Part shown: one piece after another, positions 7,095 to 60,297 of the stretch
Layout: the number at the start of each line of letters is the position of its first letter
How positions within the stretch are numbered: position 1 is the stretch's first letter
Source of the DNA: Paramacrobiotus metropolitanus
Lineage: Eukaryota; Tardigrada; Eutardigrada; Parachela; Macrobiotidae
DNA length: 64,000 nt
Direction of reading: 5' to 3'
NCBI RefSeq assembly: GCF_019649055.1
Contig: NW_026570287.1
Coordinates: 1-64,000 of the forward strand
Program-made: the position numbers and the translations under genes
Notes under the pieces: generated by a model
Databases searched by the model: none
Told to the model about the DNA's origin: nothing
Seen by the model: only the letters and a program-made list of their open reading frames with translations

Positions 7095-10000
7095 ATGCCT
7101 CGTCGTTTTGAAAGCCCTCCTGACAGTGAGGATGAAGGTGACGCTAACGTCGCCAACGACACAACCGAACAGCCCAAAGATGTGGACGAGAGTGCAGACA
7201 AGCCAGTGACGCACGATCGCGCAGGCTCTGAGGCAGCGAAACCTGTGATTGCACAGACCACAACCGAAGGTGGATCCGACGGTGACGATTCGGACGCCGA
7301 GCTACTGGTGGAGTTGACACCTCCTGACGTGGATCCTGCCAAATTCGATTTTGGCATTGAGATCCCCGAATACCGTCCGCACAAACCGCTGAATCTCGCG
7401 GAATCTCCTTCGCGTCTCTGTATCAAAGCCATCATTACTGAGAACTTCAAATCCTTCTACGGAAAGAAATTCCTCGGACCGTTTGATCAGAAATTCACGG
7501 CCATTGTCGGACCGAACGGCTGCGGAAAATCCAACACCATTGACGCACTGCTCTTCGTCTTCGGTTTTCCATCGCGACGCTTACGTGCGCAGAAACTGCA
7601 GGAGTTGATCCATGTATCGGGCAGCCACCCGGAGTGTCGGTCCGCCAGTGTATCGGTATACTTTGCCATGGTGCAGCGTCCGACCGATAATCAGCCGCCA
7701 GTGCCCAACTGTGCGGTGGAGTTCAGTATTACGCGTATGGTGCGCCGCAGCGGCGAGTCGGTGTATTATGTGGACAAGAATAAAGCCACGCGGGTGGATG
7801 TGGTGGACCGGTTGAAGGAGTACGGTGTGGACTTGGATCATAATCGCTTTTTGATTCTCCAGGGCGAAGTCGAGCAGATCTCCATGATGAAACCGACGGC
7901 CAAGTCGGAACATGAGGAAGGGATGTTGGAATATCTGGAGGATATTATCGGGTCAAATCGCTACAAGGAACCGATTACCAAGTTCGAAGAGGAAATCGCT
8001 CGGTTGAATGATGAGATTGAAAAGTCGGACAGTGTACAGCATACTTTGAGGAGAGATATGAACGGTAACCACTGGTTTTTCAGCGTTTAAATTTTGTTAA
8101 AAAAATTGAATTTAGAAAGTGAGGTTAATGCAGATTAGTTCTTCCTTGTGAAAAATTATTTTTATTTATTTTTGTGTACGATACGGTTGCCTCCTTGTTT
8201 GAGCCTTCCACTGATATGGAGTTATGGCCAACTGATAAATTTTGCGTGGGATTATCTGTAGTTTTCTGTTTTTGATAAAATAGTTCTTTTTAGGAATGCG
8301 ATCCGAAAAGAAAAAAGCGGAGAAATATTTACAGGAAGAAGGTAATGCAAGCCGATTGGAGCACATCCTTCTGCAAGTGCGCATTCACACCCTGCGGAAT
8401 GGTTTAAACGAACTGATGGAGGAAATTGCCACGCGAACCAAAGATATCCAGGAGAAACGCGAGGAACTGTCTGCCCTTAAGGCTAAAGAAAAATCGTGGC
8501 TGGATGGGCAGTCTGCTGTTAATAAACAGCTGAAAGAGTTGCGTGTTTCCGAAGATGCTGCTGTGAAGGAACACCAGCGCTTGGAAACGGAGAAAACCAA
8601 AATTGGACAAGAACTATCAGCCCGCAGAAAAGCCGCCACGCGGTTAGAAGATGAGTTGCGTAATTTGCGGCATGATATCGATGAACTGAAGCAGAAGATC
8701 GAAGAGGATGGCGAAACACTGGAGCAGAAAAAGGAGGCGGAAACAAGTCTGGATGAAAAGATCACAGAAGAAAGTGCCAATTTCGCTGCTGCGCAGGAAC
8801 AAGTTGCATCGGTGGTAGGGAAGTATCGTAAACAGAAGGAAGAACTGGACCAATCAAAGCGAGCTGTCGAGCAGGAGCTGCATGCTTCCAATCTGCAGTT
8901 GGATGGGAAACAAAATGAACTAAATTTGGTGCGTTCGGAAGCCATTGCCGCCGAGAAACGGGTGACGGATATTACGAGCCGGCTGGATGCAGCGAATAAT
9001 ATTGTCAACCAGATGGATGAGCAAATCAGACTCGATCAAACGAGGCTGCAAGATGTGAAACGGGAGTTAGCGGATGTCACAACCAAATCTGCGGCCATTT
9101 CTGCTAAGAAAGCAACCATCCAGTCAAACCTCAGTAAGAATCGGGAGAGTCTGAACGCTTTACAGATGGTTCAACAACGGGAAAGCCAAGCACGCAGTCG
9201 GGATCATGCCATTAATGATCTGATGCAATGCAAGAGAAACAACTCCATACCCGGAATACTGGGACGGTTGGGGGATTTGGGAGCGGTTGATAAAAAGTAT
9301 GAAGTCGCTGTATCGGCGATCGGTGGACGGAGCCTCGATATGGTTGTTGTGGATACGGTGCAGACCAGTAAAGCATGCATTGAGAGGCTGAAAGCCAGTG
9401 GTAAGGGACGCGCATCCATTATGGTACTGGAGCAAATACGCAAGAGGATCTCCGTGAATGCGATGGATGGCCGGACTGAATATCCGGAAGGATGTCCGCG
9501 GTTGATTGATCTGATTCGCCTTGAGGATCAGTCAGTCAAACCGGCTTTTTATTACATTTTAAGAGATTGTCTGGCGTCGGAGAATTTGGACCAAGCCACA
9601 CGCGTGGCCAACCGTGGGCATACACGACATAAAGTGGTTACGCTTCGCGGTGAAGTAATCGACACAAGCGGTAAGTGAGAAAGGCATTCGTTGAAAGGCT
9701 GAGCTTGAATTTCAATTAGAAAAGGCTATTAAAGCGGTGCATCTCGTATTAGAATTATAACATTAAAGAATAATTCTACGCTAGGCAGAACGCAGATACT
9801 TTATATTCGAAAATAGATTTAAACCTAGATTTTTTTACATTCGAATGCTCCATGCACTTGCGTGTGCAGACGTAGTTAATACAAATTCGTTTTTTAGGTG
9901 CGATGACCGGAGGTGGAAGCGCCAGCGACATTGATGTCCGAATAGGACAGCAAGTGGTAGCACATGCTTCGCCCTCCTCGGCTCGTAATCAAAATGAAAT

Positions 10001-23533: not shown

Positions 23534-24424
23534 TTTATCCAGTGGGATTACTTCATCACGCTCTCATCCACAGCCGCAACTGAAAGAAAAATCGTTGAAT
23601 CATCCCAGATTAAAAAGGCAAATAACGAGTATCATAGAACAAGCTGATGATGAATACACTTCAAAATGATTTAAATTTCCATAAAAGTCCAACAAGCAGA
23701 AGCAGAGAAACTGAACAGCTGTATGCTAGTCCAGTCTATACAAAGTGATGTGCTGTAACGAACCTTTCCGGTCCCCACTTGCTTACCAAATTCCCCACTT
23801 TTTTAACACAAAATCATTGTGTAAAACAGATAAAGGGCGACGAAAATGGAAGATTAAGCGGGATCTGAGAACATTTAAAACATCATAGTTGAAAACTCTG
23901 ACCGTGGAAAATAGAAGTCCAGATTATTCATAAGTCTGAAAAATAATATTAAATTTTGTAAAATTCACTGGTCTACAGGTAAACAGACGGGGACATCCAT
24001 TCATACTACTGCTTCCTGACGATTTGTAATCAAGTTAGCGCCACTAGTGAGGCACCAGTAGCAAGCGGAGCCCGGAGGGAGTGCGAACACAAACCGCCGG
24101 CTGTGACAAAACTGAAAAATGCGTGTGACAACCTTTATAGGCGGTTCAAAACCGACCCATTTATGTTCGCATTTCGCAGCCGGTGTTGTTGTTTAACTTC
24201 CGGCCACTTGGGCCACTTCCGTACGAGAAATCGTACCGTATTCATGGCCGAATTGCATGTCTCATGGTACGATCTGTTGTCTCAGGTCTTCGGTGGCTCT
24301 CCCGTCGCCCGTCTGTTATTTTCTCAGGTGGTAATCAAGGGAATCGCCCCGGTCTCAATCGGTCCAAGGGTTTCAACGCACAAAGGTCCGAACAAATTAT
24401 TCATGTTTCGACATTTCCCGGTCG

Positions 24425-24470
24425 CAGAGGGCCGGCATCAGCCCAGTGCTTGCAGAGGGCCGGCATCAGC
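24425..24470. repeat. short tandem duplication
   Basis: The 20-base word GCAGAGGGCCGGCATCAGCC occurs twice in a row with about 8 bases between copies. It is a small direct duplication in GC-rich non-coding DNA. Confidence 0.7.
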
Positions 24471-25107
24471 CCGTGCGGAAATCGCTTATGTACGACACGC
24501 ACAACGCGGTACATTGGCAGATAGCGTTTTTGGTCAACCTCGGCCGTTCCTCTTCTAGTAGGGACTGCATTATATGCTGATGCCTTCAGTTCGAGAGATT
24601 CCCGGTTCAGTTGCAACTTCCGCCATCACCCCTGCGAAAGAAAAGGCGGTTTTGTAGCCGTTTTTAAGCGACTCGCTTAACTTTTCCGTCCCGCGCGAAA
24701 CTTGCAGCTCGAGCGTGGTAGCCAAGCGCGTCCGACTGAATCGCCGCCGATCATAATGCGTTGGTATGGTGTCCATATTGGTAGTTGTCCCTTATAGGCG
24801 CGGCGCCCGCTCACCCGTCAGTACGCTTCTAATACATAAAGTTATTGTAAATGTGCTAGGTGAGAATGGTCGAGCGTGACAGTGCTGGTACCGGAATTTG
24901 AAGCATTATTTCAATTTAAAGGTATGTGTTTCTCCCTCTCCTTTCTGTTATCTTCGAATTTCTTAATTTTATGGTAGTTTCACTGCCCAGCCCTTCCAGG
25001 GCATCGAAATCTACAGATCTGGAATGTTCCGTCAGGTCAGAAAAGTCAGCATTCGATTAGATAAATATCGGATTTCTATTTCGTAGCTACCAATAATTAA
25101 AAACGAT

Positions 25108-25179
25108 AGAGACAACGAAAATACGCCGCTATCACCGTGCATCATGCAAGGCAATAGCGGCGCATTTTTTCTTGTCTCT
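25108..25179. repeat. imperfect inverted repeat (72-base hairpin)
   Basis: The left arm 25108-25132 (AGAGACAACGAAAATACGCC then GCTAT) pairs with the right arm 25154-25179, leaving a loop of about 21 bases. Pairing is interrupted in the A/T-rich middle. Length and loop size resemble a small hairpin RNA precursor, but it could equally be a remnant mobile element. No evidence of expression can be seen. Confidence 0.5.
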
Positions 25180-26514
25180 GTGCTATATACAGAGTAGATA
25201 AATTTCAGTTGATCTTTTATTCAGGCAAAAGTCAATAATATTATCATAATTAATAATATCAATAATTATGTTTATGAACATAACATTTCGCCTGCACTGA
25301 ATTAAACACATATAAACAATTCAGTCAATTCAAGGAGTAAATACTCTTTGAAGAAAAGTCCACAATCATTACTGTCAGCTTATTCCAATGATTTTAACTA
25401 CAGCAGAGCACGCATGTCTTCTACTCGCTAGCTAAATACTGACGCAATTGCTCCACAAAAATTTATCAGTTCAATTCATTAATCACTCATGAGATGTTTG
25501 TGAATTATCCAATAAAATAACGATAAATAAGCAATGGCTGGAGCTAGCAGAACCGGCGTGCGGAAAAACGATCCACGCCCTTATGTCTTCCTTTGTGTAT
25601 CTGTTCTTAATTTGTAAATTACAACAGGGGGCCTCGTATCATCAGTCAAATGTTCTTAAATTTAAGCGAAATTATGTAATTAAGCGCAATTATTAAGCAG
25701 TTATTATTATTATATTTTGTGCGGTGCTAGCGCTGATTCTCCTAGGTGAAGGTTTTCTAATGTAATTCTAGTGCAAAACAAAGCTCCAGGATTCCAGAAA
25801 CTAATCAATACTGTAGCTGTAAAGTTATCTCAAACCACAATTAAGTAAAAAATGCATTTACTTCGAAAGTCAGTGGAAGTGTAGAGAATCGAAAATATTC
25901 TTATAACCGGTGGAGACTCTGTAGAAGTAACAGATACATGTTATTAACGTAATGCCTTTAATCTGGATTCGCGTAAGTTTAACGTTCGAATGTACTGATT
26001 GCTCAAGTAGGGTCAATATCGCCATATCACTAATTTTTCTTAAAAATTATATTCTTTACGCCTTGTGGATCCTGGCACGCATTGATCTTTGTTTCGACAA
26101 AAAGGAGGGAAAGTAAAGGAAGGTGAATTAGTGGTCAAGGCTCTTAATACCGCTTTTGTGGTTCATTAAAGCATCTGCCACTGGCATGGCCTGCTCTCAC
26201 TTCCGCCGTCTACAATTAGCATCTGCGACATCAGCAGCAGCGAATCGTAATTATAGAATTCCGATTTTCGATCTGCTTGCGCACGGTGTAAGGAAGCCAA
26301 TTCCGTCAGTGTCCACCAGCGGCTGATGTCAATCCGACGGGAAGCATCGTCATTTCTGGGCATGTGCTGTTAATTACGGGTGCCTTGCGAGACGGATCTC
26401 AAGTATCCATCGTGCCTAGTTGCCGAAATCATCGCGTTATATTGGGGTAATTAGAAAGTAATTGGACGGCATCTACCGCCACTTCCTGCATCTTTATTAA
26501 TTAGATCTCCCGCT

Positions 26515-26552
26515 TATAAAAACCCTGCTTAACCGCTGCAGATTTGTCAGTT
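26515..26552 (+). promoter_or_regulatory. TATA box and initiator of small gene 1
   Basis: TATAAAAACCC begins at 26515, and a TCAGTT initiator-like word at 26547-26552 lies about 33 bases downstream, the usual spacing. It sits about 148 bases before the ATG of the first small paralogue. A closely similar TATAAAACCCC stands before the third paralogue. Confidence 0.55.
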
Positions 26553-26662
26553 GTTCGTTACGAACTGAACTCCTGAACATTTATCATTGCTTTCTGCCTT
26601 TAAGTTCTTGCGGCAGTGCTAGCGTTGAGGTTGTAGCAAAGTTCTACTCGTAGTTTTTTACA

Positions 26663-27347
26663 ATGATTCCGCATTACGAAATTGAGAAGCGCTGCAGCCT
26701 CTGCATTCAACGACGCCGGCAGTCCGAAGCGGAAGCAATGATGGCCTTGCAAGGAGGGGTAAGCCATTAATATTTACTGCAGCATGATTTTCACTGCTTA
26801 ATTAACGGCTTCTGTTATTGGACGGTAATGCCTAAATCAAGAAAGAATACTAATAACACCAGTGAAGGCAATAATGTGGCCTCACAATTTAAACAACTAA
26901 CCGACAGACTGTTAATTAAATTCAAAAGCAGTTAACTATAATTAGATAATTATGATAGTAGGTAATTACGGCTGGCATTTGACTGTTATATCATCTTTGC
27001 AAAAAATTTCAAATGATTGGTAAGAGTAAGATTTTTAAGAGTTTTCTTGACGGTTACTGGTGACCTTTATGCCATATGCCTAACCGTCTTAGGAAACTAT
27101 TTTTATTGCGTTTCATATATCAATACAGTTGATGTTGGCGTTATTACACGTACGTGTTTCCCGCTAATGCACTTGCTTACACCATTTGTTTCAACAGCGT
27201 AACATGTCCATTTCCTCCGATCCAACGGGAGGATCCGGGTTGGGTTATTTAAGCCATAAAGACCTACAGAAACTACAATCCGTAGCCAGCGGCTCCGGAG
27301 GCCATGTATGTCAGCGACACGGAAACTCGCAGAGTCGTCATCACTGA
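26663..27347 (+). CDS. small protein of unknown family, paralogue 1 (CxxC-QRR)
   Basis: Two exons, 26663-26758 and 27198-27347 (TGA), joined in phase 0, give 81 residues. Exon 1 encodes MIPHYEIEKRCSLCIQRRRQ and then an Ala/Glu/Met stretch. Exon 2 is Ser/Gly/His-rich (LSHKDLQKLQSVASGSGG) and ends HGNSQSRHH. The gene is identified by comparison with two neighbours at 28857 and 32588. All three begin MIP-[HR]-[FY]-[ED], carry C-x2-C-x-QRR at about residues 11-18, and have one phase-0 intron after the conserved block. No signal peptide or membrane segment is present, and the protein is strongly basic. The CxxC could be half of a metal site, with His residues in the tail as possible partners; that is speculation. 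No known family is recognised. Confidence 0.7.
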
Positions 27348-28720
27348 CCTTTACCTTTCCTTGTGAGGATCAGATTTCTGCTTCAAGTCATGCGCAGAAA
27401 CGGATGCTAAACATCACCGCCGTAGTAATTATCACGCTAATAATTAATAATTTGCTTTCCATCCCATCGAACGGAAAATGAGAAATGTGATCCCTGTCCT
27501 AAATGTCGAGGTGGTTAGCGGTCTCTGTTAACTATCAAAATTGATCAGCACAAGGCTTATTTATTTATAATGAAACCTTATGGATTGCATGCGAAAGAAA
27601 TTGCATGTTATATGATTTGTGCAGTCGTTGATCTTATTAATTTTCATGAGCGTGATTTGTGCGAAATGCCTGCTCTTCATGCAATCTACATGCGTTTACA
27701 TTGTTTTCATCTTCCTGTAAGCACGGAAAATTGCATATTAGTTGATAGATTATCGTGCAGATAACCAGCTGACCTGCACGCGTTATGTACTTACATTTTA
27801 GTAAGCAAGCATTAGAATTATGTGAGTATTGATTGAAAAGCAAAAACAAAACGGTGCTATGTGTATATGTACAAAACGTACAATACGATATGAAGTAGTA
27901 CTCGTATCATGTAGATATAGAAAATATGTTAATGTGATAAGTGCCGGTAAGGTATATGTGGAAAATCAACATTTTCGCAGCAGTTTTACTTACTTTAGTT
28001 ATATCTATATATATATTTTTATTTTGTTAGGGATACTTACCAAGTGAGCATACATTGCTGCTACTACTGAATACCTACTGGGTATATATTCTGGGTTCGG
28101 AATTATTAAAGTACGATTTAATTTTGTACAGCCAACGTCTGCGCTGAAAGGAGAAAGCCATAAAGGAAGTTACTGTAATTAGGAAAAACCCATTGGTGGC
28201 ACTTTGTTTCCAATGACTGTTTTACATGTGTTAGACTTATGGATTCTCAAACAACAAATTGATTATTTTCACATAGCGTTTATGGGAATCCGGTGGATTG
28301 CGGAAAAGCACTTCCCGATTTGAATTTCTTTGCATGGAGCTATAATTATTAATATGCACGCATGCAGAGTGCCAATGCCGAGCCCTTATATTGACCGTGA
28401 AACACCTCCTTGTACGTGAAGTTCAATATTTACAACCATGCGGTCCACCAGATCGATATTTTAATGTTGGCCCAATATTGCAATATTATGCAACATTGGA
28501 AAAGAATACTTACCAAGGTTTCAATGTTCTTTTCGCTACCAGGATCAGCGTATACAAATATTCTTACGATGTACAGCAGGCGGACGTACATGTGTGTTGC
28601 ATTTCCTTTACGCATCTGCATGTCTCTTAAGTTTTTGATAGACGAACTAAACCTAATCAATGAGATTATAAGTCGCACGCCATGAAACCTCTCTTTTTGT
28701 AAATGCTCCCGTGAGAAGCG
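27348..28720. other. spacer between small genes 1 and 2
   Basis: AT-rich with no supported gene. Short open frames at 27570-27764, 27829-28047 and 28391-28685 overlap others on the opposite strand and show no motif. Contains the presumed 3' UTR of small gene 1 and the promoter side of small gene 2. Confidence 0.4.
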
Positions 28721-28727
28721 TATAAAT
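28721..28727 (+). promoter_or_regulatory. TATA box of small gene 2
   Basis: TATAAAT lies about 136 bases before the ATG of the second small paralogue, close to the distances seen before paralogues 1 and 3 (148 and 173 bases). Confidence 0.45.
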
Positions 28728-28856
28728 GCTTGAAAATAACACTCTTGTAGCATTGTATATTTCTAAGCCTTGAACTGTTGCAGCAGCTGTAAAAAAGTTT
28801 GTTTTCAGAACATTTTTTATTAGTTACGTTATATTGTCCTTCATCCATAAAGCGTA

Positions 28857-29789
28857 ATGATTCCGCACTTCGATATTGATTCCACGTGCGAAGCGTGTGA
28901 GCAGCGTCGTTCGCAAGCGAATCAATCAACATCTGCAATTTCCTTACAGGTACGAGTAGATACGAGAAGCTAACTATTCACACAATTCTTTTCTGGAATT
29001 CTGTACAGTGTTTTGTGAGTATACATGCACGAACGGTTAAGATGCACGAAAATTAACATAAAATAAGCTCTTGCTAATTAGAATGCCATGGCCAGTTTGG
29101 ACATCAGATAAAGATTAATTCTACGGCTTGACCGTTAACTCTTTCTTGGTGGACTACCTAAATCGTAGAACATCGTAGAATTAAGTGCAACAATTTTTGA
29201 ATTCGTGGCCGCTTTAAAACACAGTTATAATTTTTAGCCAACTGCGTAAATGGCTACGAGTTGTGACTGTTTAAAAGTGGCCAAAAATCAAATCGCTCAT
29301 CACGAACTGATATAATCGTTGTACAAGTACTAACCTTATAAATACAGTATACAAAAGGACTCATAGTATATGCAAACTATATTAGTGATGAAGCCGGTCA
29401 CAGAACTAAGAGATAATACTGACCTTTTATATGTCTAACAATTATTTCTTGAAAATACTTTCTTTTCACCCTATTTGTTAGCGCTACATAAACTGTTGCG
29501 TATGTCATAGATTTGAATCTTTTATTTTGTATTCTATAACAATATGGACTGACACACAGAAGTACTTCGAGTACAGCTCTTCGACTATATCAGTTGCAGT
29601 GGGGTGTTTAATATTTGCTTTCTCCGAATTCTCATAACTGATTTTCTGATGTGCGTTATTTAGCACCATATCATGCGGCGTCAGCGACGCTCGTCCCTCC
29701 TAGAACAACTGGGACTGCGGGGCTCTCGCCGACCTTCCCAAAGCAGAAGTTCCCATGGAAGCACCAACTCTAGCCACCATTTCCCGTAA
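28857..29789 (+). CDS. small protein of unknown family, paralogue 2 (CxxC-QRR)
   Basis: Two exons, 28857-28949 and 29664-29789 (TAA), phase 0, give 72 residues. Exon 1 encodes MIPHFDIDSTCEACEQRRSQ followed by a polar stretch ending in ISLQ. Exon 2 encodes HHIMRRQRRSSLLEQLGLRG, then a Ser/Arg stretch, and ends SSHGSTNSSHHFP. The end resembles paralogue 1 (HGNSQSRHH versus HGSTNSSHH), so both exons are homologous between these two genes. Very basic, with no signal peptide. The 714-base intron is the longest of the three. Function is unknown. The RRQRR cluster could be a nuclear localisation signal or a processing site, but neither can be decided here. Confidence 0.7.
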
Positions 29790-32414
29790 TCGGCAGTCTC
29801 AGGCCGCGCCGTGTTTGAATTAGGAACGTTTAAATGGGAACATTGTAGTATTTGCACATCGAAAACGCATATTCGGCAAGTTGCTTAGTGGCTATGGATT
29901 CCAGGAAAAAGAATTTGTATATATAAATGCATAGATGGGTGTATATATGTAAACAGAGATTATGTAAAATGAAATTAAGTGCATTCTTTGTAAATAAACT
30001 GTAAATTTTTTTCGTGTTTGCATGTTGCACATGCTCGTATGCTGTTGTTGTACATACAAGTTGTATTAAAGAAGTTATTTGATCTCCAGGAGCAGATTCG
30101 AAACAAGCGACCCAATATAAAGCGAAATGTTGCACTCACTTTTATCAGTAAAGGCTGTAAAGCGGTTTGAAATAATAAAGCCAAACAGAAATCTGAATAG
30201 TAAACCGAAAATAATATAAATTATGAAATCGAATATGAATAGGAAATCCAAAGATCATATGAACAGAATTCTGCAAAAAACTTTCCAGAATTGGACAATT
30301 ACGTTTTGGCGCGATAACGGGCGCAAACAATACTTCCCCAGGACATCTGGATTACGGTTTCATAAATTAATGCAGTTATGCTGCTCGAGGAACTTAATTA
30401 TGGTATAAAATAGCATTGTACTCGTATAGATACGTATTTTAGCATGATTCACTGAGGTTACATTGCTGTTGCCCATTAAAGGAGACCAAAAATCAAAAGT
30501 AAGTAATAATAACGCAAAAACAGTAACATAACAGTAACATATGCACAGAAACAATATATACAAAAACAGTAATATTTCCCTAACTTTTACAAATGCAACT
30601 TTTAAATTTTGACAACGGCATTAATATCATAGATAGATACAAATTAAGCAACGGCGAGTATTAATCTGTATAGCAGCCGTATAGTACGATGTTACTACGA
30701 ACATCAGCTTAGATTTTCAAAAAATGTCAACGTAAGCTTTTTCAGATTTCTTATAGTTAATTTATTGCACCAAATTTGTTATAATCAAAATAGTATTACC
30801 TAGTGCTTGCGCTTTGTAGTAGTAATTTTACAGCTCAGCGAATACGACCGAGCAATCAAGCAAACCGTGTATGACGACTTTGGAATAAAACTTAAAAAAG
30901 CACTCTGTTGGCTGTTGCAAAACAGGTCTGCACTGACGGCTAAAATCTGTTCCGAATACATAAATTTGTGAGCTGTTTCTTATTTGAAAACGTGTGTGGG
31001 GTAAATATGTGTTTTTGTGGTTTCGCAGCTTTTGCTGCAGTTTACCTTCAATGCGGTGGATGAAATCGATAGAAGTATATGTATATGTATATGTAATGTT
31101 ACGCTGTGCATTTGCATACAGAAAAAGCCTGTTCAATATTGCTGAATTTCCCTAACTTTCCTTTTTACCCTAACTATTTTCCTTTGATGCAATACGAAAT
31201 TTTTGAAAAGTTTGATCGTAACATATATATTTCGTAGTGACACAAAAAACGGTCAAAAACAAGCCCGTCCAAAAACAAAAACGTACAAAAACGTTGCTTT
31301 TATTTTAAAACGATACCAACATGGCATTAGTGCTACTTCGAAGTAGGTGGAGATAGCAACAGATGTAAAAGTTACGAAATAAGCATTCTAGATCTGCTTA
31401 CAATGGCAGCAACGGTAACAATACACTGCTGAGAATTTACCCGACAGAAAAAGCGAGTATGTAAATAAAAAAATTTTTACCCAACGAACAACTTGGTTGA
31501 CCAATATAACCAAACAGTACAAATGTCGTTTTTAGCAAGAGGTCGGCTTATAACAAAGTATGCGGCTTATAACAAAGTATGGATACGTACACTACGCTTC
31601 TGACTATATTTCTAATATTCATGGACAAGAATTTCAACAACACAGCGTAGGAGCATCTGTTACAGATCCAGTGGGATGAGAGGTCATTAAAACATACAGC
31701 CGCTGAGCATAAGGTATAACATTTGGGGAACTGAATTAAATTAAGCTGCAGCCATGAAAGCAGTTTTGATTGATTCTGTTTTGAAAATTGGAAAAAGGAA
31801 CCATCTATTAGAGCCTCTCCCATCCCAAAAAGCTAAGGTCACCCCATCCTCTATACTCTGACAATGTATCATCATGATGCAACCAGAATAGTTAATCCCG
31901 TGATAACGCGGCAGGTCACAAGCGAAAAGATGATGCCGACAATAATAAAATAATCGCATTTCTCTGCTGTTGATCACGACTTCATTGTCTATATTGCCGT
32001 AGATAGACGTATATAATCCTGCGCGGCTTATTGCAACATCGTATGCGGTCCAAAACAATACCGATAATATCGCTTCAAAAAATATCCGGTTAAGCCGTGC
32101 GCCTTGACAAAAGGGCAAGTTGTAAATACGCCCGCACTTGTGCGTCATCACGCAATAACCACATATACCGCCGTTTCATTCAGAAAAATCGGGAATACGT
32201 GCGTGAATCATCAGGTGCCAAATAAACAAAAGGGACGCGTCCATCCGGCTAATTGAATGCTCTTGAATGCGGTCACAAGGGGCATCGCGGTATGGAGCAC
32301 CATTGTGAATTCGATAGTCTGAGTGGAGGCGGAACCGATCCCACTTTTCCTGGGATGTTTAACTTAATATTCCCACTGCAGCTTGACTTAGCGCAACCAG
32401 CGCGTTTGTAAAAG
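29790..32414. other. spacer between small genes 2 and 3
   Basis: AT-rich, with a small (TATATG)n run near 31077. The longest open frame (31741-32151 minus, 136 codons) has no recognisable motif or splice support. The others (29830-30135, 30828-31136, 31548-31823) look like chance. No fourth copy of the small-gene family was found here by eye on the plus strand. Confidence 0.4.
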
Positions 32415-32421
32415 TATAAAA
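32415..32421 (+). promoter_or_regulatory. TATA box of small gene 3
   Basis: TATAAAACCCC begins at 32415, about 173 bases before the ATG of the third small paralogue. Initiator-like TCAATG and TCACTG words follow 28-35 bases later. Confidence 0.5.
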
Positions 32422-32587
32422 CCCCGGAATCCGGCACTATATCAATGTCACTGCCGACAGCTAGCTGGATCGAAAAGTTTCGACTTTGCCAGTTCAAGCG
32501 ATTATACTACTGTAGTGACTTCTGGTTAGCTCACAGCTTTAACAGTTTTTTTTTAATACATACACCTTCGAGTTCTTAGCAGCAATC

Positions 32588-32981
32588 ATGATTCCACGAT
32601 TTGAAGTTTGCAAATCTTGCGATGCTTGCGAGCAAAGAAGGCTCCAATCTCAGTCACCGGTAAGTTTGCTGAGAATTCAGTCACCTTACTTATTAACACT
32701 AACAATAATTAATTATAAATAACTTTAAGGTTGCGTCGAATTATTATGGGGTAATCGTTTTTTTATTACCGTAGCTTTTAGTTTTTGCAGAGGTCACTTC
32801 TGTTGATTTGCATTTAGTAATGCCCTTTTATTTGCAGCAAAGCGGTGGATCTTTAGCCACAACACCCGTTATGCGGCACACTGGTTTCCGAACTGTTCAA
32901 CAGGCATCGAAATCACCATCTAAGGCAAACAACCCAGAATGTTCCAATGTTTCGTGTTCAAGAAAATCCCTGAACGGATAA
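32588..32981 (+). CDS. small protein of unknown family, paralogue 3 (CxxC-QRR)
   Basis: Two exons, 32588-32659 and 32838-32981 (TAA), phase 0, give 71 residues. Exon 1 encodes MIPRFEVCKSCDACEQRRLQ and SQSP. Exon 2 encodes QSGGSLATTPVMRHTGFRTV, then a Lys/Ser-rich region ending CSNVSCSRKSLNG. Exon 1 clearly matches paralogues 1 and 2 (CDACEQRR versus CEACEQRR), while exon 2 has diverged and has its own cysteines instead of the His-rich tail. The 178-base intron has a good gtaagt donor and a tttgcag acceptor. The pre-ATG words AGTTCTTAGCAGC here and AGTTCTTGCGGCAG before paralogue 1 are also alike. No signal peptide. Function is unknown. Confidence 0.7.
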
Positions 32982-33542
32982 CGCTTACCGGCTGTTCCGG
33001 AGAAGAAAATACCGCTGTTCACAATTGTGACCTTTGCATTTTTACTGCTCAACCATGTCGCAAGCGCTAACGTAGTCGTATGATGTATTTGAATGCTTAT
33101 TCTGGCGCTAAATATTAATTTTTTGAAACTTCGTATTGCTGGTCTTGTCGGCGGTCACCAAAACAATGCGCTGTTTATTCAAACCTGATGTCAGCATTAG
33201 CAATAAACCATCAACAACATGTCAAACATAAGATCTACTGGTCCGTACAATATTAGGATCAAAGGATCCGGAATTCATCGCACGAAGGCGATCAACGAAC
33301 ATTAACTGCTAAACATTATTGTTGCACTTTGCATTGCGAAAGTATTGCATAAGAACAAAATTATAGAACTAAAACGTCGGAGGTAAAATCATCATTGAAG
33401 GGCATGCACAACGCGATAACGGATCAACTGGAGAACAACTCCAAAGCATCCAGATTCTAGACTCATTAAAACGAATAACAAAAAACAAAGAAGATTCAAA
33501 AACCTATACAAAAAAACTGAGCAAACACACTAGCAGCATTTT
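32982..33542. other. between small gene 3 and HP1-like gene
   Basis: Convergent interval holding the 3' UTRs of the flanking genes (an aataaa word lies near 33201). Nothing else was recognised. Confidence 0.4.
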
Positions 33543-35225
33543 CTACCGCTTAGAACGCTTGATCCCTGGCGGACAAAGACTCTTGTCAATCAGGCGCGAT
33601 TCAAAGTAGTCCATCAGCATTTGCGGGTCTTCCTCTAGCAAGTCCTTTCCTGGTACAGGTTCCAGAATATTAGTGCCCTCCCATTTGACGATGTAGCGTA
33701 ACGGTTTCTCCGCTAGATCGGCAACGCCCAGGATCTTCTCAGCAGTTAGGCCCAGTGCTAGACCGCATTCCCGTTTCAGTAACACTGGATCCTCTATGGT
33801 GTATTCATCGAACTCGTCATCGCTGTCGTTGCTAACAGCTGTGGTGGTGCGCTTAGTCGTTTTAGCTGGGGCTTTGGATCGGATAAGCTGCACGTTCGTC
33901 ACTTTGCTATCCTTTTGAACAGCAACCGGTGGTGGAGTCGGAGATAAACTGACGGAAGTCGATTCTCTACGCAAGGGGATTATTTTTCGTTGAAAACTGT
34001 AAATAAAAGAAGACAGCGCTATCAAATATTCACGCAATTATCCAATAAAATACTGTATATGCACATGTACATCAGTATTTCTATCACCAATATCCCTTTG
34101 TGCTGCAAGACAGCCGATAAGCAGCACGGTAAATGCAAGTACATACTTTCAAGTTGACAACTTCGTAACTATAATAATTCTGGTGTCATTACTTTTAAGT
34201 TAATCTGCTATGCGACCCACTGAAACTTTTCTTACACACAAAAACAAATTTCCCGTTTCATAACAAATAAGTGGATTATTTAATTAATTAATTTCTGGTG
34301 GCTCTTTTTAATTGTTGCAAGAGCCATAATTACGAGCACTTACGACAATGTTTTGCATAATGCATACAAGCCTAATGCGAGTCAATTCAACCAGTTTTTT
34401 TCTTAAACCTGATACTACAAATTTCAAAATAGTACTACCTACCACGCTGTATAATAACGGTACTACGGTCTATGCACAAGAATTACCTGGGTGCTGCTAG
34501 TGAGATTACGTTCACTGCTTTGGGTGACGGTAGATCCTTCCCGTTTTTCTTTGGAGAAGCCGGCTTCTTTGTCGCCCTCGGAGACGGGGATGTTTTTTTC
34601 GTATTGTTGGACGTCGGCTTGAGAAACTCGTTTTTGTTAAATCGCTGTAAGGGAATCCCCTTACTCAGGACGGGAGTGCTAACTGCCGACGCGACCGACT
34701 GGATTTTCCCATCCCCGCTCTTCTTAGCTTTATCGCCAGGTTTTGCCTTCAGCTCCTTCGATGCTAAAGTTTTTGGTAGCGACGGCGGATTTTTTTTCTT
34801 ATTGGCCTGTCCCACATCATCGCTCTTTGTCGCTTTGTCTCCACTCTGTAACTTGGATTCTGCTAATGGCACAATTTTTGGCAGCATCGGCGCATCCTTC
34901 TTCTTTTCAGCAGACGTTGCTGATTTTACTACAGAGAGCAGATTGGTCTTTTTATCCGTTTTCAGTTCCAGTTCATGTCTGCGCAAATATTCGCTCAGCA
35001 CTTCCGACGAGCCTGCTAAATGCTGCAGTGGCTCGTCCGTATTGGACTCCTCCGGCCAGTGAAGCCATTTCACGCGAAATACCCACTCTCCATCATTTCC
35101 CACCCGATGATCGACAATCGATTCCACTTCATATTCCACGCCGCAGCTGACGCTGTCCTTATCGCTGGAGGACCGGTCCGCCTTTTTGTCACATTTGTTG
35201 GGAGAAGCCTCTACAAGATGTGCAG
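33543..35225 (-). CDS. HP1-like protein with chromodomain and chromoshadow domain (first exon missing)
   Basis: Heterochromatin-type protein that reads methylated histone H3. Two exons are placed: 35225-34487 and 33996-33543 (TAG at 33543-33545), joined in phase 2. The first begins in phase 1, so a short upstream exon with the start codon lies above 35225 and was not found. The chromodomain is EYEVESIVDHRV, GEWVFRVKWLHWPEESNTDE and LSEYLRRHE; the aromatic residues Y, W and W that form the methyl-lysine cage are present. A long Lys/Ser/Pro-rich hinge of about 220 residues follows, then a chromoshadow-like domain (ECGLALGLTAEKILGVADLA, LRYIVKWEG, PQMLMDYFESRL). The hinge is longer than in classical HP1. 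A CDYL/MPP8-type protein is less likely because the second domain is at the C-terminus and looks like a shadow domain. Confidence 0.85.
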
Positions 35226-36932: not shown

Positions 36933-38077
36933 ATGGCCGAATCAAGTACTGACCAGAGGAACACCGACATTCGACTCAACATCATCGTAGCTGCTGATGC
37001 CAAGCGAGGAATCGGACAGAATGGCACGCTCCCATGGAGCTTACCGTGCGTAGTCGAAAAAATTCAAACCGAGCAACATTTTGGAAATGCAAAATGATTA
37101 TTCATTTCAGAAAAGAGACCAACTATTATCATGGAATGATTAACAGCGTTTCGCCCGGTACGTGCACAAATTAATATGAGTACCGTATTTTTTAGAGTCG
37201 TATGATTGTATCTATCTCTTGTTCTAAAATATGTTATGTTTCTAACTGCAACAGTTTGTTGCGAAATTAATATGCTTTCCATGCTTAATATGAATGTGCT
37301 TAATGAAAATACCATTGGCTTTGATTTATTGTATTGTTGAATGTAAAGTTCAGTTTTGGTGCACGAAATAAGCTGCTGCAGCAATGCCATTAATTATAGA
37401 AGATGTCCATCCGTGACTGTTTTCAGTTTGGTTAGATCCGAACTTTACAAATTTAAATGTTGTAACCTGGGTATCATTTGATCTGTCTAGTTTTAGGAGT
37501 TTTGTCGGTAAATAATATTAATCAGTAAAGGTTTGTGCCGGTAATTCAGGAAAGCAGAACGCCATCATCATCGGCCGGATTACGTACGCCTCGATCCACG
37601 ATCCACGCGACTACGAGAAGCTGCTAAAGATTGTGGTGACAAGAGGCGCGGCACCGGAAGGAGCGCCGCAGCCTAATGTTCGTTATGCTGTGTCTTTCGA
37701 GGATGCTCTCGAGGTACTGCGGAAAGAGATGAAACTGCGCGACATTGAGACAGTGTGGAGTTTGGGTGGTTCCAAGATTTATCAGGAGACACTGGATTCT
37801 CCATACCTGCATCGCATTTATCTTACCAATGTTCTGGCCGAATTTCCATGTGATACATTTTTCCCGGAATTTGACAAGTCCAAATTCAATCGAGTCACGT
37901 AAGTTGATGTTGGCATATTTTGCTTTGAAAAGCAACAAGGAATACTTTCAGCGATATTTTCTAAAATCATATATATTTACGAACGTTTGTCGCAGGGACG
38001 AAAGAGTGGACCCGAACGTTCAAACTGACAAAGGAGTGCAGTTTCAGGTGGAAATTTTTGAAAAGATTCGCAGCTAA
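36933..38077 (+). CDS. DHFR: dihydrofolate reductase
   Basis: Reduces dihydrofolate to tetrahydrofolate with NADPH for thymidylate and purine synthesis. Four exons with consistent phases: 36933-37045, 37111-37157 (only 47 bases), 37550-37898 and 37996-38077 (TAA), about 196 residues. Exon 1 has LNIIVAADAKRGIGQNGTLPWSLP, with the conserved GIG-x-NG-x-LPW substrate loop. Exon 2 encodes KETNYYHGMINSVSPG. Exon 3 starts GKQNAIIIGRITYASIHD and includes the NADPH-binding VWSLGGSKIY, then LHRIYLTNVLAEFPCDTFFP. The last exon ends GVQFQVEIFEKIRS. The tiny exon 2 explains why no long open frame spans the N-terminal half. The usual GRKTW-x-SIP is changed to GRITYASIH, and the following loop is altered, so the enzyme is divergent but keeps its core. 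Confidence 0.93.
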
Positions 38078-55208: not shown

Positions 55209-58200
55209 CTAATATGCAACTCGCACCGGTGATGGTGGTGGCAGAGGAGATGGTGTGGCGAATCGATGGGGTGACTGGCGTACGCGTGTTGGTGCCGGAG
55301 GGACATTGAAAGGTACCGGAAATGTAGCTGAATGCGAAGGAATTGGTGCCTGATGGCCAGAAGAAGTCACCCGTCTCCCAACTCCTGTGGGACTGGACAT
55401 GGTGCGATTGCGGCTGCTGCTCAATCGCTCATTGAATTCCCTGCTCAGGAAAAACAATGATGTAAAAACCAGTCCATGGCATTGCTGACCCAATGCATGA
55501 GTACCATAAAATCAATGATCACTAGGAGCTGAGTTAACATAAGGCATAAAGTGTGTTGAACTATGTCCGAATTTTGATATCACTAATAAACCGTTTTATT
55601 CCTTCCGCTCATCCACTAACATTTCAATATATCGACGGCTTAACAACCTTTCAATATGCAATACCCTTATCGACTCACCTCTCCGTATCGATCTCCAAAC
55701 TGGATTCAGATTCCGATAAGTTCCGGCAGATTTCTTCTCGCCGTTCCGCTTCTTGCTGCAATCGACGGCGCAAACGAGTATTTTCTTCCTTCAAGTGTTT
55801 CTCCTCCATGATCAATAGCTGCATTTTTTCTTCGTGATCTCGTTCGGTACTGTCCAGAAGATACTTCATCCGATCCACTTCCGACTTGAGCAACTCAACT
55901 TGCCGCTTGTCTGGACTGTCGGGGGATATGCGAGCCGGCTCAGCGCGGTCGCTACCGGTATCCATACTCGGCGGCGACTGCTCCAGTTTCTGCTGAAGCG
56001 ATCTGCAAAAACGAACATTCTAAATGCTCCAGCGCAAGACTTTAAATAAGATAAATCTCGCACCGCTTTTCTGCCTCCAGCTTAGTCATCCGGATCCACA
56101 GCTTATTAACTAGAGCTTCCTGTTCTTGTTCCAGGGAATTCTCCAGTTCACCTTTCTCTCGACGCAGCTATAATTATATGCAAAATTATGCAAATGAGCG
56201 CCGGAAGGCAGTGGAAATCAGACACCGCACCTGCTCCAATGAGTGCTGTTTCGACTGAATATCGTGTTCCAACTTCTCGACCTTGCGCATCAGCTTGTTA
56301 ACCAGACATTCCTGTTCACGCTCTAAGGTCGATTCAAGTTCCACCTTTTCTCGTTGAAGCTGTACACAAATGCCAAATTAAAATCTATCTACCCTGATAC
56401 TCCTGCATAAGCCAGCAATTTATCACTCTCGAGCCACGAAGCAAATGCTATAAGAGCATTCATAAACTGCACAGAAAAACCGATCAACACCAAGGTTTTT
56501 AAAAAAAATACACCGTTTAATTACAGTGTAAACAAGGAAAGAGAAAAATTATAGATCCTTGCAAGTTGTACTGACCTTCATTAATTTACGGGACAAATCA
56601 TTTGTCAAACACTCTTCCTCCTGCTCGTAATTCTGTGCCAAAACTTCCTTCTCTCGCTTCAACACCTGGATTTTCTTCAAAAGAGTGTTACTGATGAATT
56701 CCTCTTCCTGTTCTGCCTTGGCTTGCTGAAAAAAAAACGCAATTAATACAAACACAAATTTGGGGCTGATGGCCAGATTTATGTTCTGTACATAAAAAGG
56801 CACTCATAATGCAGTGTTAAAAAACCTTCCCAGAAACCGTACCTTTATTTACTTTCATTTTATGTTGTGCTATCTGAATTCGCACTTTACCATAAAAATG
56901 CTTGCTCGTATTTGTCACAAGTAATTCTTGTTTATTCATACGGGTACCGATGATATTTTCTTCTATCGCACTGATATTATTGAATGATCACCACAGTATC
57001 AATTATTAATCGCCAGCGGGACAATGATAAAATGTAATTAAAAATCTGCAACCGCAACCGATCCTTTGAAACAGAGCAGCGAATGGATTGGCAAGACTTG
57101 GCGTATCGATTGAAGCACTAAAGTACCACTACCCATCGTAAGCCTGCATACTTGCAAATTTGCAACGCAGTATTGACGAAAAGAATTATTCATTCATTCA
57201 TTCCATTTAGCTTTCTGAGTCCTGTAACATTCTAATGAAAAGAATGCACTTGACTTGTGAATCAGCCGGGATTAGTACACGTTCCCAGATTTTAAACTGG
57301 AACGGCAAGCTTACTCATATTATGAGACTAACGCCGACTGTATCAAGATTCAGATCTATATTGCCACGAATGGGATACACCAGAGCCGGCAAACCAGAAA
57401 AGACTGGCCAAAACCAATATTATATTCTGAAAGCCCGTAGTCGAAAACCCGGCCAGATAGTGTTCATTTCTTTTAAAACCTCTCCCGCTTCCAGCGCCAC
57501 AGGGGAAGAGTTTCGACTACCTTCACCAAATGTAACTAAATTATTACAATAATAATTATCATCGTGGTATTTTTAACCAGGCAATGTTGCCACGTAAACC
57601 AAATAAAATATATATAGTTAAAAAATGAAAGTATTTTTCACTAATTAAAATATCAGAATCAATTTAATTAGCAGACCGTTGGCGTTATTGCGACAAGAAC
57701 GACTACAGACTGTACTTATCAACGTTGTCATCGAGGACAATTTCTAAACAAGTGCCGGCCGAGCAGCGATAGACCGAACTACCGCCACTGTTCAGTGCAC
57801 AAGCCCGTTTCTGTTCTAGTTAGAATAGCCCGCTAAGCCAGTGAGCGACCGAACTACCACTATGGATAGCTATGTGAGCGGTTGACCGAGCTGTCATTAC
57901 TGTCCGATGCCGAGTGAACGAGTGACCGAGTTACTGTTACTACTGTCCGGTGCAGAGAGCCCGGTAGGGGAGCGAGTGACCGCGCTGTCATTTATGTCCG
58001 GCGCAGAAAGTCCGTTAGGTCAGCGGGTGACCGAGCTGTCAGTGGCGGGTGTCACTACTGTCCAGTGTACAAAGTCCGTTAGGTCAGCGGGTGACCGAGC
58101 TACCACTGCTGTCCGGCGCAGAAAGCCCGTTAGGGAACGAGTGGCTGAGCTACCACTACCGTCCGTGCACAGAGCCGGTAGGTTTGCGGGTGACCGAGCT

Positions 58201-60297
58201 GTCACTAATGTCCGGCGCAGAAAGTCCGTTAAATCAGCGCGTGACCGAGCTACTACTGCTGTCCGGCGCAGAAAGCCCGTTCGGTGAACGGGTGACCGAG
58301 TTACCACTACTGTCCGGGCACAGAGCCCGGTAGGTGAGCGGGTGACCGCGCTGTCACTAATGTCCGGCGCAGAAAGTCCGTTAGATCAGCGCGTGACCGA
58401 GTTACCACTGCTGTCCGGCGCAGAAAGCCCGTTAGGGAACGAGTGGCTGAGCTACCACTACCGTCCGTGCACAGAGCCGGTAGGTTTGCGGGTGACCGAG
58501 CTGTCACTAATGTCCGGCGCAGAAAGTCCGTTAAATCAGCGCGTGACCGAGCTACTACTGCTGTCCGGCGCAGAAAGCCCGTTCGGTGAACGGGTGACCG
58601 AGTTACCACTACTGTCCGGGCACAGAGCCCGGTAGGTGAGCAGGTGACCGCGCTGTCACTAATGTCCGGCGCAGAAAGTCCGTTAGATCAGCGCGTGACC
58701 GAGTTACCACTGCTGTCCGGCGCAGAAAGCCCGTTCGGTGAACGGGTGACCGAGTTACCACTACTGTCCGTGCACAGAGCCCGGGAGGTGAGCGGGTGAC
58801 CGAGCTGTCAGTGGCGGGTGTCACTACTGTCCAGTGTGCAAAGCCCGTTTAGGTGAGCGGGTGACCGAGCAACCACTGCTGTCCAGCGCAGAAAGCCCGT
58901 TTGGGAACGAGTGGCTGAGCTACCACTACCGTCCGTGCACAGATCCGGTAGGTGAGCGGGTGACCGAGCTGTCACTACTGTCCAGTGTACAAAGCCCATT
59001 AGAGAACGAGTGACTGAGTTACCACTACTGTCCGGTGCAGAGAGCCCGGTAGGTGAACGAGTGACCAAGCTGTCATTATTGTGCAGTGTACATGAGTGAC
59101 CGAGCTACCACTACTGTCCGGCGAACGGAACCGGTTAGATAAGCAAGTAATCGAGCCACCACTAGTGACCGGACATACACCACTGGGCACAAACCAATTT
59201 CCAGTGAAAAGAGCCAGTGAAGTGATGAGTCACCAAACTAGCGATCCAGTGCACTATCACTGTTTCGAATTTCACACCTTATAGACTGATATTTCGGCTT
59301 TCTTTGCGGGTAGGGGATATCGTAAAATTATCTGAATATACAGCCAAAGGGAATGCTTTTCAAGGTTGAGAGATCATGAACTGATCTTCATAGAAAATTC
59401 GTGTTTGCCCTATTGCATGTACCGTATGTTTCGACGAATAGACTGATATTAATCTAATAAAATTAATATTCATTCAAATTCAAATAAAACGGTCATGGAC
59501 CACAAGAAACGCGGAGGCGAAGCCGAGGCTGTTTCTTGTAATTATTATGCCGAAAGCATATCAAAATTTGAAAGGAGATCAATCAGTCATTAACGCAGAC
59601 AAAAAAATGACACTGGTCCACGCGAAAATTTCTATAAGTATTAACTGCCAGTTATTACGGCAATATTCAAAATCAGAAAAATTATTTTTAAAGGCCAATG
59701 TCAGAAGTATGATCTAGATTCTGAACAGAATGAGAGAACCCGTAAACAAGGGCTCTGCACCCCTTCATTAACAAAAACAAGATATATTAATAATTTAAAT
59801 TCTCGAACGAAGAATGCCGCAAGTGTCACTGAGATGATATATAACGTAAATCAGCTACGGGAAATAAAGTGCGAAAACCTACAAAACAAACTTACAATCA
59901 TGACGCTCTGCTGGCGCAGTGATTTGTTCTCCTCCTGGAGAGATTTAATGCGCAATTTGTGCGTATCCACTTCCATTTTGAGAACGCGGTTCTCCTGCTG
60001 CAGCCGTTCGATTACACGCTGCAGCTGTTCACGCGAGCTAGCCGACAAGGGGACCGTCGACAGCGTGACCGTCAGATTACCGCTGCCATCCCCCATCTGG
60101 GGCGCAGGGAAATTCCGGTGCAAAATGGGAGTGGTGGCACCCGACATGGATCCATCCAGGGACGACGTGTCCGACCATTCACTGGCCGAATCCAGCTGAT
60201 CAAAGTTATTCGCGCTAATGGACCCCGACAGACCAGCATTGCCTACACTCCCCACATTCATCATGCCGTTTGCATTGGCACCCGTCGGATCAGACAT
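55209..60297 (-). CDS. CCDC6: coiled-coil domain-containing protein 6
   Basis: Coiled-coil scaffold protein. In humans it is a DNA-damage-response substrate and the partner in RET fusions; the role in this animal is not known. Six exons with consistent phases: 60297-59896, 56725-56576, 56359-56231, 56167-56064, 56002-55679 and 55440-55209, 446 residues (human 474). The start ATG at 60297 ([14 protein letters not shown]) is preferred, with an in-frame ATG at 60327. Diagnostic motifs are [99 protein letters not shown] and [20 protein letters not shown]. The last exon is Ser/Pro-rich, as in the human protein. Intron 1 is unusually long for this window (about 3.2 kb) and contains the minisatellite at 57.84-59.1 kb. 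Confidence 0.95.
57840..59110. repeat. GC-rich minisatellite (about 50-base unit, 302-base higher-order repeat)
   Basis: Around 24 head-to-tail copies of a unit of 49-51 bases built on GAGCGGGTGACCGAGCTGTC, then CACTACTGTCCGGCGCAGAA, then AGCCCGTTAGGT-like sequence. Some copies carry a 12-14-base insert (GTGGCGGGTGTCA). A block of about six units is repeated with a period of 302 bases (for example 58049-58333 and 58342-58635), with a third partial copy after. The array sits in CCDC6 intron 1. It is open in several frames on both strands only because the unit lacks stops. Unit lengths are not multiples of three, so it is not coding. Confidence 0.93.

Follow-up and report, generated by a model that had tools for sequence, protein, structure and literature searches.

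An overlooked family of small, old paralogous genes with a conserved N-terminal module in the tardigrade Paramacrobiotus metropolitanus

Introduction

A single CxxC motif mediates the metal-dependent pairing of two chains in the zinc clasp of CD4/Lck and in the zinc hook of Rad50. Zinc fingers of the C2H2 and UBZ types carry a second ligand pair, made of His or Cys residues about 3-5 residues apart and located within some 10-20 residues of the CxxC. In protamine-like sperm nuclear basic proteins, about half of the residues are arginine. Among tardigrade proteins, the CAHS proteins are, to our knowledge, found in eutardigrades only. TDR1 has been described as a tardigrade-specific, small and basic DNA-binding protein of the DNA damage response (PMC11233135); DNA binding and induction by radiation are among its hallmarks.

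The locus analysed here lies in a stretch of 64,000 nucleotides of P. metropolitanus (contig NW_026570287.1, positions 1 to 64,000), hereafter the window. It contains three very small plus-strand genes, which resemble TDR1 as described in encoding small and basic proteins (PMC11233135). Each of the three proteins carries a single CxxC, invariant in all three, which by analogy with the zinc clasp and the zinc hook could share a metal ion between chains.

Results

Three two-exon gene models

Three plus-strand gene models were rebuilt from the window sequence and gave translations of 81, 72 and 71 residues, each closed by a stop codon. Exon 1 of gene 1 (26663-26758, 32 codons) begins with MIPHYE, carries the C-x2-C-x-QRR motif and is backed by homology and by silent-site saturation. 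Its predicted intron (26759-27197, 439 bases, GTAAGC..CAACAG) leads to an exon 2 of 49 residues (27198-27347 with the stop codon), indicated by its codon score. Gene 2 has an exon 1 at 28857-28949 (31 codons, starting with MIPHFD and containing the same motif) recognised by homology, a predicted intron of 714 bases at 28950-29663 (GTACGA..ATTTAG), and an exon 2 of 41 residues at 29664-29789 with its stop codon, again indicated by the codon score; an in-frame alternative acceptor would move the start of this second exon to 29685. In gene 3, exon 1 (32588-32659, 24 codons, MIPRFE and the same motif) combines strong homology with a codon usage that is not supportive, and the predicted intron spans 178 bases (32660-32837, GTAAGT..TTGCAG). 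Exon 2 of this gene (32838-32981 with the stop codon, 47 residues), the start of which would be moved to 32775 by an in-frame alternative acceptor, is the least certain part of the models.

All three introns are GT-AG and interrupt the frame in phase 0. An earlier, sequence-only reading of this DNA had proposed these coordinates, lengths, splice sites, phases and intron sizes, and all of them match the sequence, splicing itself being a prediction. Alternative acceptors located within 1600 bases and opening at least 28 residues did not yield a better shared tail, as judged by eye. We regard the three first exons as very probably real paralogous coding sequence. For genes 1 and 2, the complete models with both exons are probably correct, and we lean, with less assurance, towards that of gene 3.

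Exon 1 encodes a conserved N-terminus

The three-way alignment of exon 1 contains nine invariant columns (M1, I2, P3, C11, C14, Q16, R17, R18 and Q20). The start MIP-[HR]-[FY]-[ED] and the motif C11-x2-C14-x-Q16-R17-R18, both pointed out earlier, are exact in all three proteins. The scores of each of the three pairs were matched by 0 of 2000 shuffles, in local as well as in global alignment, which places the claimed homology of the first exons far above chance. When the window was scanned in all six frames, CxxCxQRR occurred nowhere outside these three exons; less strict patterns picked up two further and unrelated places, both on the minus strand (7577-7600 and 37463-37477).

The assembly (169,799,020 bases in 533 contigs) was then covered with tblastn. 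Each exon 1 found the other two, with E values of 0.003 to 0.31 and all within the same 6 kb, and a hand-made exon-1 consensus found the three copies with E values of 2.4e-6, 2.0e-5 and 5.9e-4. None of these four queries detected a fourth exon-1 place in the assembly at E<=10; more distant copies may still exist, since the search is heuristic and blind to gaps and to withheld stretches. In the same assembly, a CAHS stretch used as a query matched 18 places at E<=1 (best 76% identical, E 1.7e-32), some neighbouring ones of which may be exons of a single gene; these matches mark the genome as that of a eutardigrade. One internal stop is present in four of these 18 CAHS-like places (C9:1783742-1783963, C15:148687-148887, C73:137156-137320 and C69:99550-99660), which are possibly pseudogenes or matches overrunning exon ends. 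Searches for SL1 RNA and cuticle collagen, as signs of a nematode origin, gave no match, a result of little weight since both queries also failed to match in all of 14 control genomes; COX1, which was detected in 8 of 14 controls, gave no match either.

Over the first 21 codons of exon 1, silent changes amounted to 9.8 of 12.8 sites between genes 1 and 2, 11.9 of 12.8 between genes 1 and 3, and 12.0 of 12.7 between genes 2 and 3. The resulting pS values of 0.77, 0.93 and 0.95 are saturated; the pN values of the same pairs were 0.36, 0.34 and 0.30. Summed over the pairs, codon positions 1, 2 and 3 differed at 23, 19 and 42 of 63 sites each. A Fisher test of position 3 against positions 1 and 2 gave p values of 0.016 (genes 1-2), 0.11 (genes 1-3, not significant) and 0.0025 (genes 2-3), the three comparisons sharing sequences and thus not being independent. 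Saturated silent sites with pN no higher than 0.30-0.36 argue that the exon-1 protein is under constraint and that the duplications are old. These data show that exon 1 encodes a conserved N-terminus of 21 residues, maintained by selection on the protein, and they bear out the proposal that these very small genes are paralogues, their first exon being constrained at the protein level.

The DNA on either side of exon 1 shows no such conservation. Similarity above that of shuffles was absent both from the 300 bases before the ATGs, where 140, 253 and 193 of 500 shuffles reached the scores, and from the initial 170 bases of the introns (494, 271 and 63 of 500), as expected of old duplicates. Saturated silent sites, together with upstream regions and intron starts that score no better than shuffles, speak against the recent duplication implied when the cluster was attributed to tandem birth. 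The earlier suggestion that the proteins are lineage-specific goes beyond these data, which come from one tardigrade assembly. The best explanation is that the three genes are old tandem paralogues, which form a small eutardigrade protein family.

Divergent second exons and codon usage

Homology among the three second exons was not demonstrable. Among 2000 shuffles, the local alignment scores of the pairs 1-2, 1-3 and 2-3 were attained in 98, 1872 and 1131 cases, and the global scores in 472, 1191 and 978. Since no homology can be demonstrated, a rate of tail evolution cannot be measured, and the fast evolution attributed to the tails is left unsupported. The ends that genes 1 and 2 were said to share, HGNSQSRHH and HGSTNSSHH, are present; their resemblance is suggestive only, given the local and global scores of this pair, and an end-anchored comparison chosen post hoc was matched by 222 of 10000 shuffles. 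The description of the tails as basic and rich in Ser, His and Arg does not extend in full to gene 3, the tail of which is not Arg/His-rich (1 His and 6 Arg among the 71 residues of the whole protein). When searched against the assembly, each tail found itself, and only that of gene 1 gave two weak extra places (E 0.21 and 1.3).

Such tails may never have been homologous, if a cassette made of the promoter and exon 1 was duplicated repeatedly and each copy captured an unrelated neighbouring tail exon. Demonstrable homology does end at or before the exon boundary, and the tails have no clear match elsewhere in the assembly. We nevertheless consider this origin unlikely: the ends of genes 1 and 2 are weakly alike (98 of 2000 shuffles), the upstream DNA retains no leftover similarity, and the similarity of the tails may merely have eroded because the silent sites are saturated. 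Old tandem paralogy of the genes is the reading that we prefer.

Codon usage was scored after training on ten long-ORF stretches of the window, not all of them backed by a Pfam match, with overlapping open non-coding stretches as controls. The score of gene 1 was reached by a fraction of 0.0011 of 1851 controls for exon 1 and of 0.0121 of 745 controls for exon 2. For gene 2 the corresponding fractions were 0.0307 of 1954 for exon 1 and 0 of 1121 for exon 2; in gene 3, exon 1 gave 0.2749 of 2910 and exon 2 gave 0.0744 of 820. Furthermore, the frame of gene 3 exon 1 scored below both other frames, and its exon 2 scored no better than its other frames. By this measure genes 1 and 2 look coding and gene 3 is not supported.

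Promoters, transcript ends and surroundings

Plus-strand TATA boxes were recognised by their match to the consensus at 26515-26521 (gene 1, TATAAAA), 28721-28726 (gene 2, TATAAA) and 32415-32421 (gene 3, TATAAAA). They are located 148, 136 and 173 bases before the respective ATGs, in agreement with the earlier reading. These boxes are weak evidence because TATAAA occurs ten times on the plus strand of the region (24601-33500, 8.9 kb). With a chance expectation of 0.096 per 120 bases and 0.295 per 400 bases, the finding of a TATA box at all three genes is suggestive and not a proof. Gene 1 also has an Inr-like TCAGTT at 26547, 32 bases beyond its TATA box, a position at which genes 2 and 3 lack such an element.

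In the 700-base upstream regions, none of 17 motif patterns was present in all three genes. TAATTA occurs at four places upstream of gene 1 and at two upstream of gene 2, ARE-like and Inr patterns are found in genes 1 and 3, and a Su(H)-like pattern and CAGCTG in gene 2 only. The three heat-shock-element patterns tried were absent from the 700 bases upstream of all three genes. In the 500 bases upstream, k-mers (9-12 bases) that the genes share when one mismatch is allowed were no more frequent than in first-order random DNA. The notion that these genes are strongly regulated had been drawn from the TATA boxes and, as no other motif common to the three genes was found, it is not established. 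Upstream of gene 1, at 25118-25168, there is an inverted repeat whose two arms of 25 bases are 84% complementary and separated by 1 base.

Downstream of the stop codons, AATAAA was found at 29993 for gene 2 and at 33202 for gene 3, at distances of 203 and 220 bases; the only candidate poly-A signal of gene 1 is an ATTAAA at a distance of 757 bases from the stop codon. The signals of genes 2 and 3 bear on another arrangement, in which the three first exons would be alternative first exons of one transcription unit, each with its own promoter and all spliced to a common exon further downstream, and the second exons of the models would be wrong or minor. The three donors, all in phase 0 and on the same strand, would suit this arrangement, as would the absence of demonstrable exon 2 homology and the weak codon usage of gene 3 exon 2. 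We find it distinctly unlikely, however, since AATAAA lies near two of the stops and the second exons of genes 1 and 2 look coding and are preceded by AG acceptors. Moreover, the next recognised gene downstream, located directly after the cluster (33543-35139), is HP1-like, encoding chromo and chromo-shadow domains, and sits on the opposite, minus strand. Three separate paralogous genes thus remain the preferred reading.

On its other side, the cluster is flanked by Ser/Arg-rich minus-strand ORFs at 20.6-23.5 kb, two of which were tested and had no Pfam match, and the long ORF at 24103-24558 on the plus strand near the cluster belongs to no Pfam family. A minus-strand ORF of 136 codons between genes 2 and 3 (31741-32151), also devoid of a Pfam match, may be due to chance. 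The neighbourhood of the cluster provides no pointer to a shared function. The GC content of the window ranges from 0.35 to 0.51 in 2-kb bins. At 57944-59092 the window contains a tandem array of units of about 50 bases, organised in higher-order units of 152 and 302 bases (85% and 89% matches); part of it is open in frame as the ORF 57907-58287, which has no Pfam match.

Protein properties and comparison with known families

The three proteins have pI values of 9.35-11.40, net charges of +4.0 to +5.5 and mean hydropathies of -0.77 to -1.06. Low hydropathy, high pI and the absence, by eye, of an N-terminal hydrophobic stretch make secretion unlikely. We infer that the products are unsecreted, basic and largely disordered proteins of 71-81 residues, expressed from separate TATA promoters. 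AlphaFold2, run on exon 1 only with an alignment of the three sequences, predicted that residues 12-28 form a helix (pTM 0.30, with a mean pLDDT of 81 for residues 11-20), which we take as a hint and not as a structure. No His or Cys follows C14 in any exon 1; the next such residue is H52 for gene 1 and H38 for gene 3, and gene 2 has the neighbouring pair H32-H33.

The statement that the proteins belong to no recognised family holds for Pfam, where the three proteins gave nothing above cut-off in a search at E<=10. Matches below cut-off were DUF5540 for protein 1 (E 0.17) and DUF4655 for protein 3 (E 0.033), with none for protein 2. DUF1272 (PF06906) was rejected, as it matched gene 3 with E 0.0089 and 16.5 bits against a cut-off of 25.3 and left genes 1 and 2 unmatched. 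Among PDB sequences, proteins 2 and 3 had no match. The exon-1 profile gave a sole PDB match at E<=10, which was neither the zinc clasp of CD4/Lck nor the zinc hook of Rad50: it was 2m7q, a zinc-finger (UBZ) fragment of TAX1BP1, with an E value of 0.72 that is at chance level. Thirteen positions align, with P-H-x6-C-x2-C-E in common; unlike this zinc finger, exon 1 has no second ligand pair. A C2H2-type or UBZ zinc finger was rejected on the same ground, exon 1 offering no second His/Cys pair and the Pfam listing containing no zinc-finger model. A protamine-like sperm nuclear basic protein was likewise set aside, with Arg at only 7 of 81, 10 of 72 and 6 of 71 residues in genes 1, 2 and 3. The 22 pattern matches among IMG/VR contigs and the 18 among GTDB contigs were in no case confirmed by tblastn. 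In the literature searched, peptide strings of the three proteins were not found as text, and the matches listed included no paper on the family.

Membership in the TDR1 family was rejected, since proteins of 71-81 residues with a conserved N-terminus differ from TDR1, with 146-291 residues and a conserved C-terminal domain (PMC11233135). The products might still be functionally TDR1-like, that is, small nuclear proteins that bind DNA or chromatin in a stress response. Their small size and high pI would agree with such a role, and TDR1 itself is a basic DNA-binding protein of tardigrades. It seems a poor candidate nonetheless: the most similar part of TDR1 is C-terminal, the reverse of this family (PMC11233135), the net charge of only +4.0 to +5.5 is low, and no gene has a heat-shock-element pattern (0 of 3) in its 700 upstream bases.

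Discussion

That these loci are chance intergenic ORFs or a conserved non-coding element is highly improbable, for although the codon usage of gene 3 does not look coding, three like starts occur within 6 kb with no other place listed in 169.8 Mb, and the changes are concentrated at silent sites, unlike in a DNA element.

For the three old paralogues, the position of the CxxC where the predicted helix starts, with QRR behind it, in proteins probably too short for a fold of their own, suggests a docking peptide. The conserved N-terminus would form a docking module in which an extended start, MIP-x-[FY]-[ED], gives way to a helix with the CxxC at its beginning and QRR within it, and this module would bind one partner common to all three paralogues. 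The Ser-rich tails would make the paralogues differ in what they bind or in how they are phosphorylated. We put forward an N-terminal docking module, whatever its chemistry, as a tentative proposal. Binding of the partner could involve a metal ion shared through the CxxC, in the manner of the zinc clasp or the zinc hook, or a redox-sensitive thiol pair; this metal or thiol mechanism, suggested by analogy, is possible but doubtful. A single CxxC cannot by itself complete a zinc site, which is a point against docking via metal. The tails hold possible second ligand pairs: C70/H73 for gene 1, H32/H33 or H62 together with H69/H70 for gene 2, and C59/C64 for gene 3. It is very unlikely that a new type of short docking module (MIP-x-[FY]-[ED]-x4-C-x2-C-x-QRR), dependent on a metal or on redox state, was moved with its promoter and exon 1 onto unrelated tails, the metal site being rebuilt each time from non-homologous sequence.

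Small gene families restricted to one group of organisms occur commonly but mostly escape notice, since gene finders miss exons as short as theirs. The cluster described here is an overlooked family in a tardigrade, real, old and small, with a conserved N-terminal module. It provides an unusually clean case, in which a module of 21 residues has been kept by selection past the saturation of silent sites, whereas its surroundings have diverged beyond recognition. If expressed, these genes would add to the set of tardigrade-specific proteins, from which stress proteins such as TDR1 have come (PMC11233135), and they would provide a small peptide suited to fishing directly for its partner.
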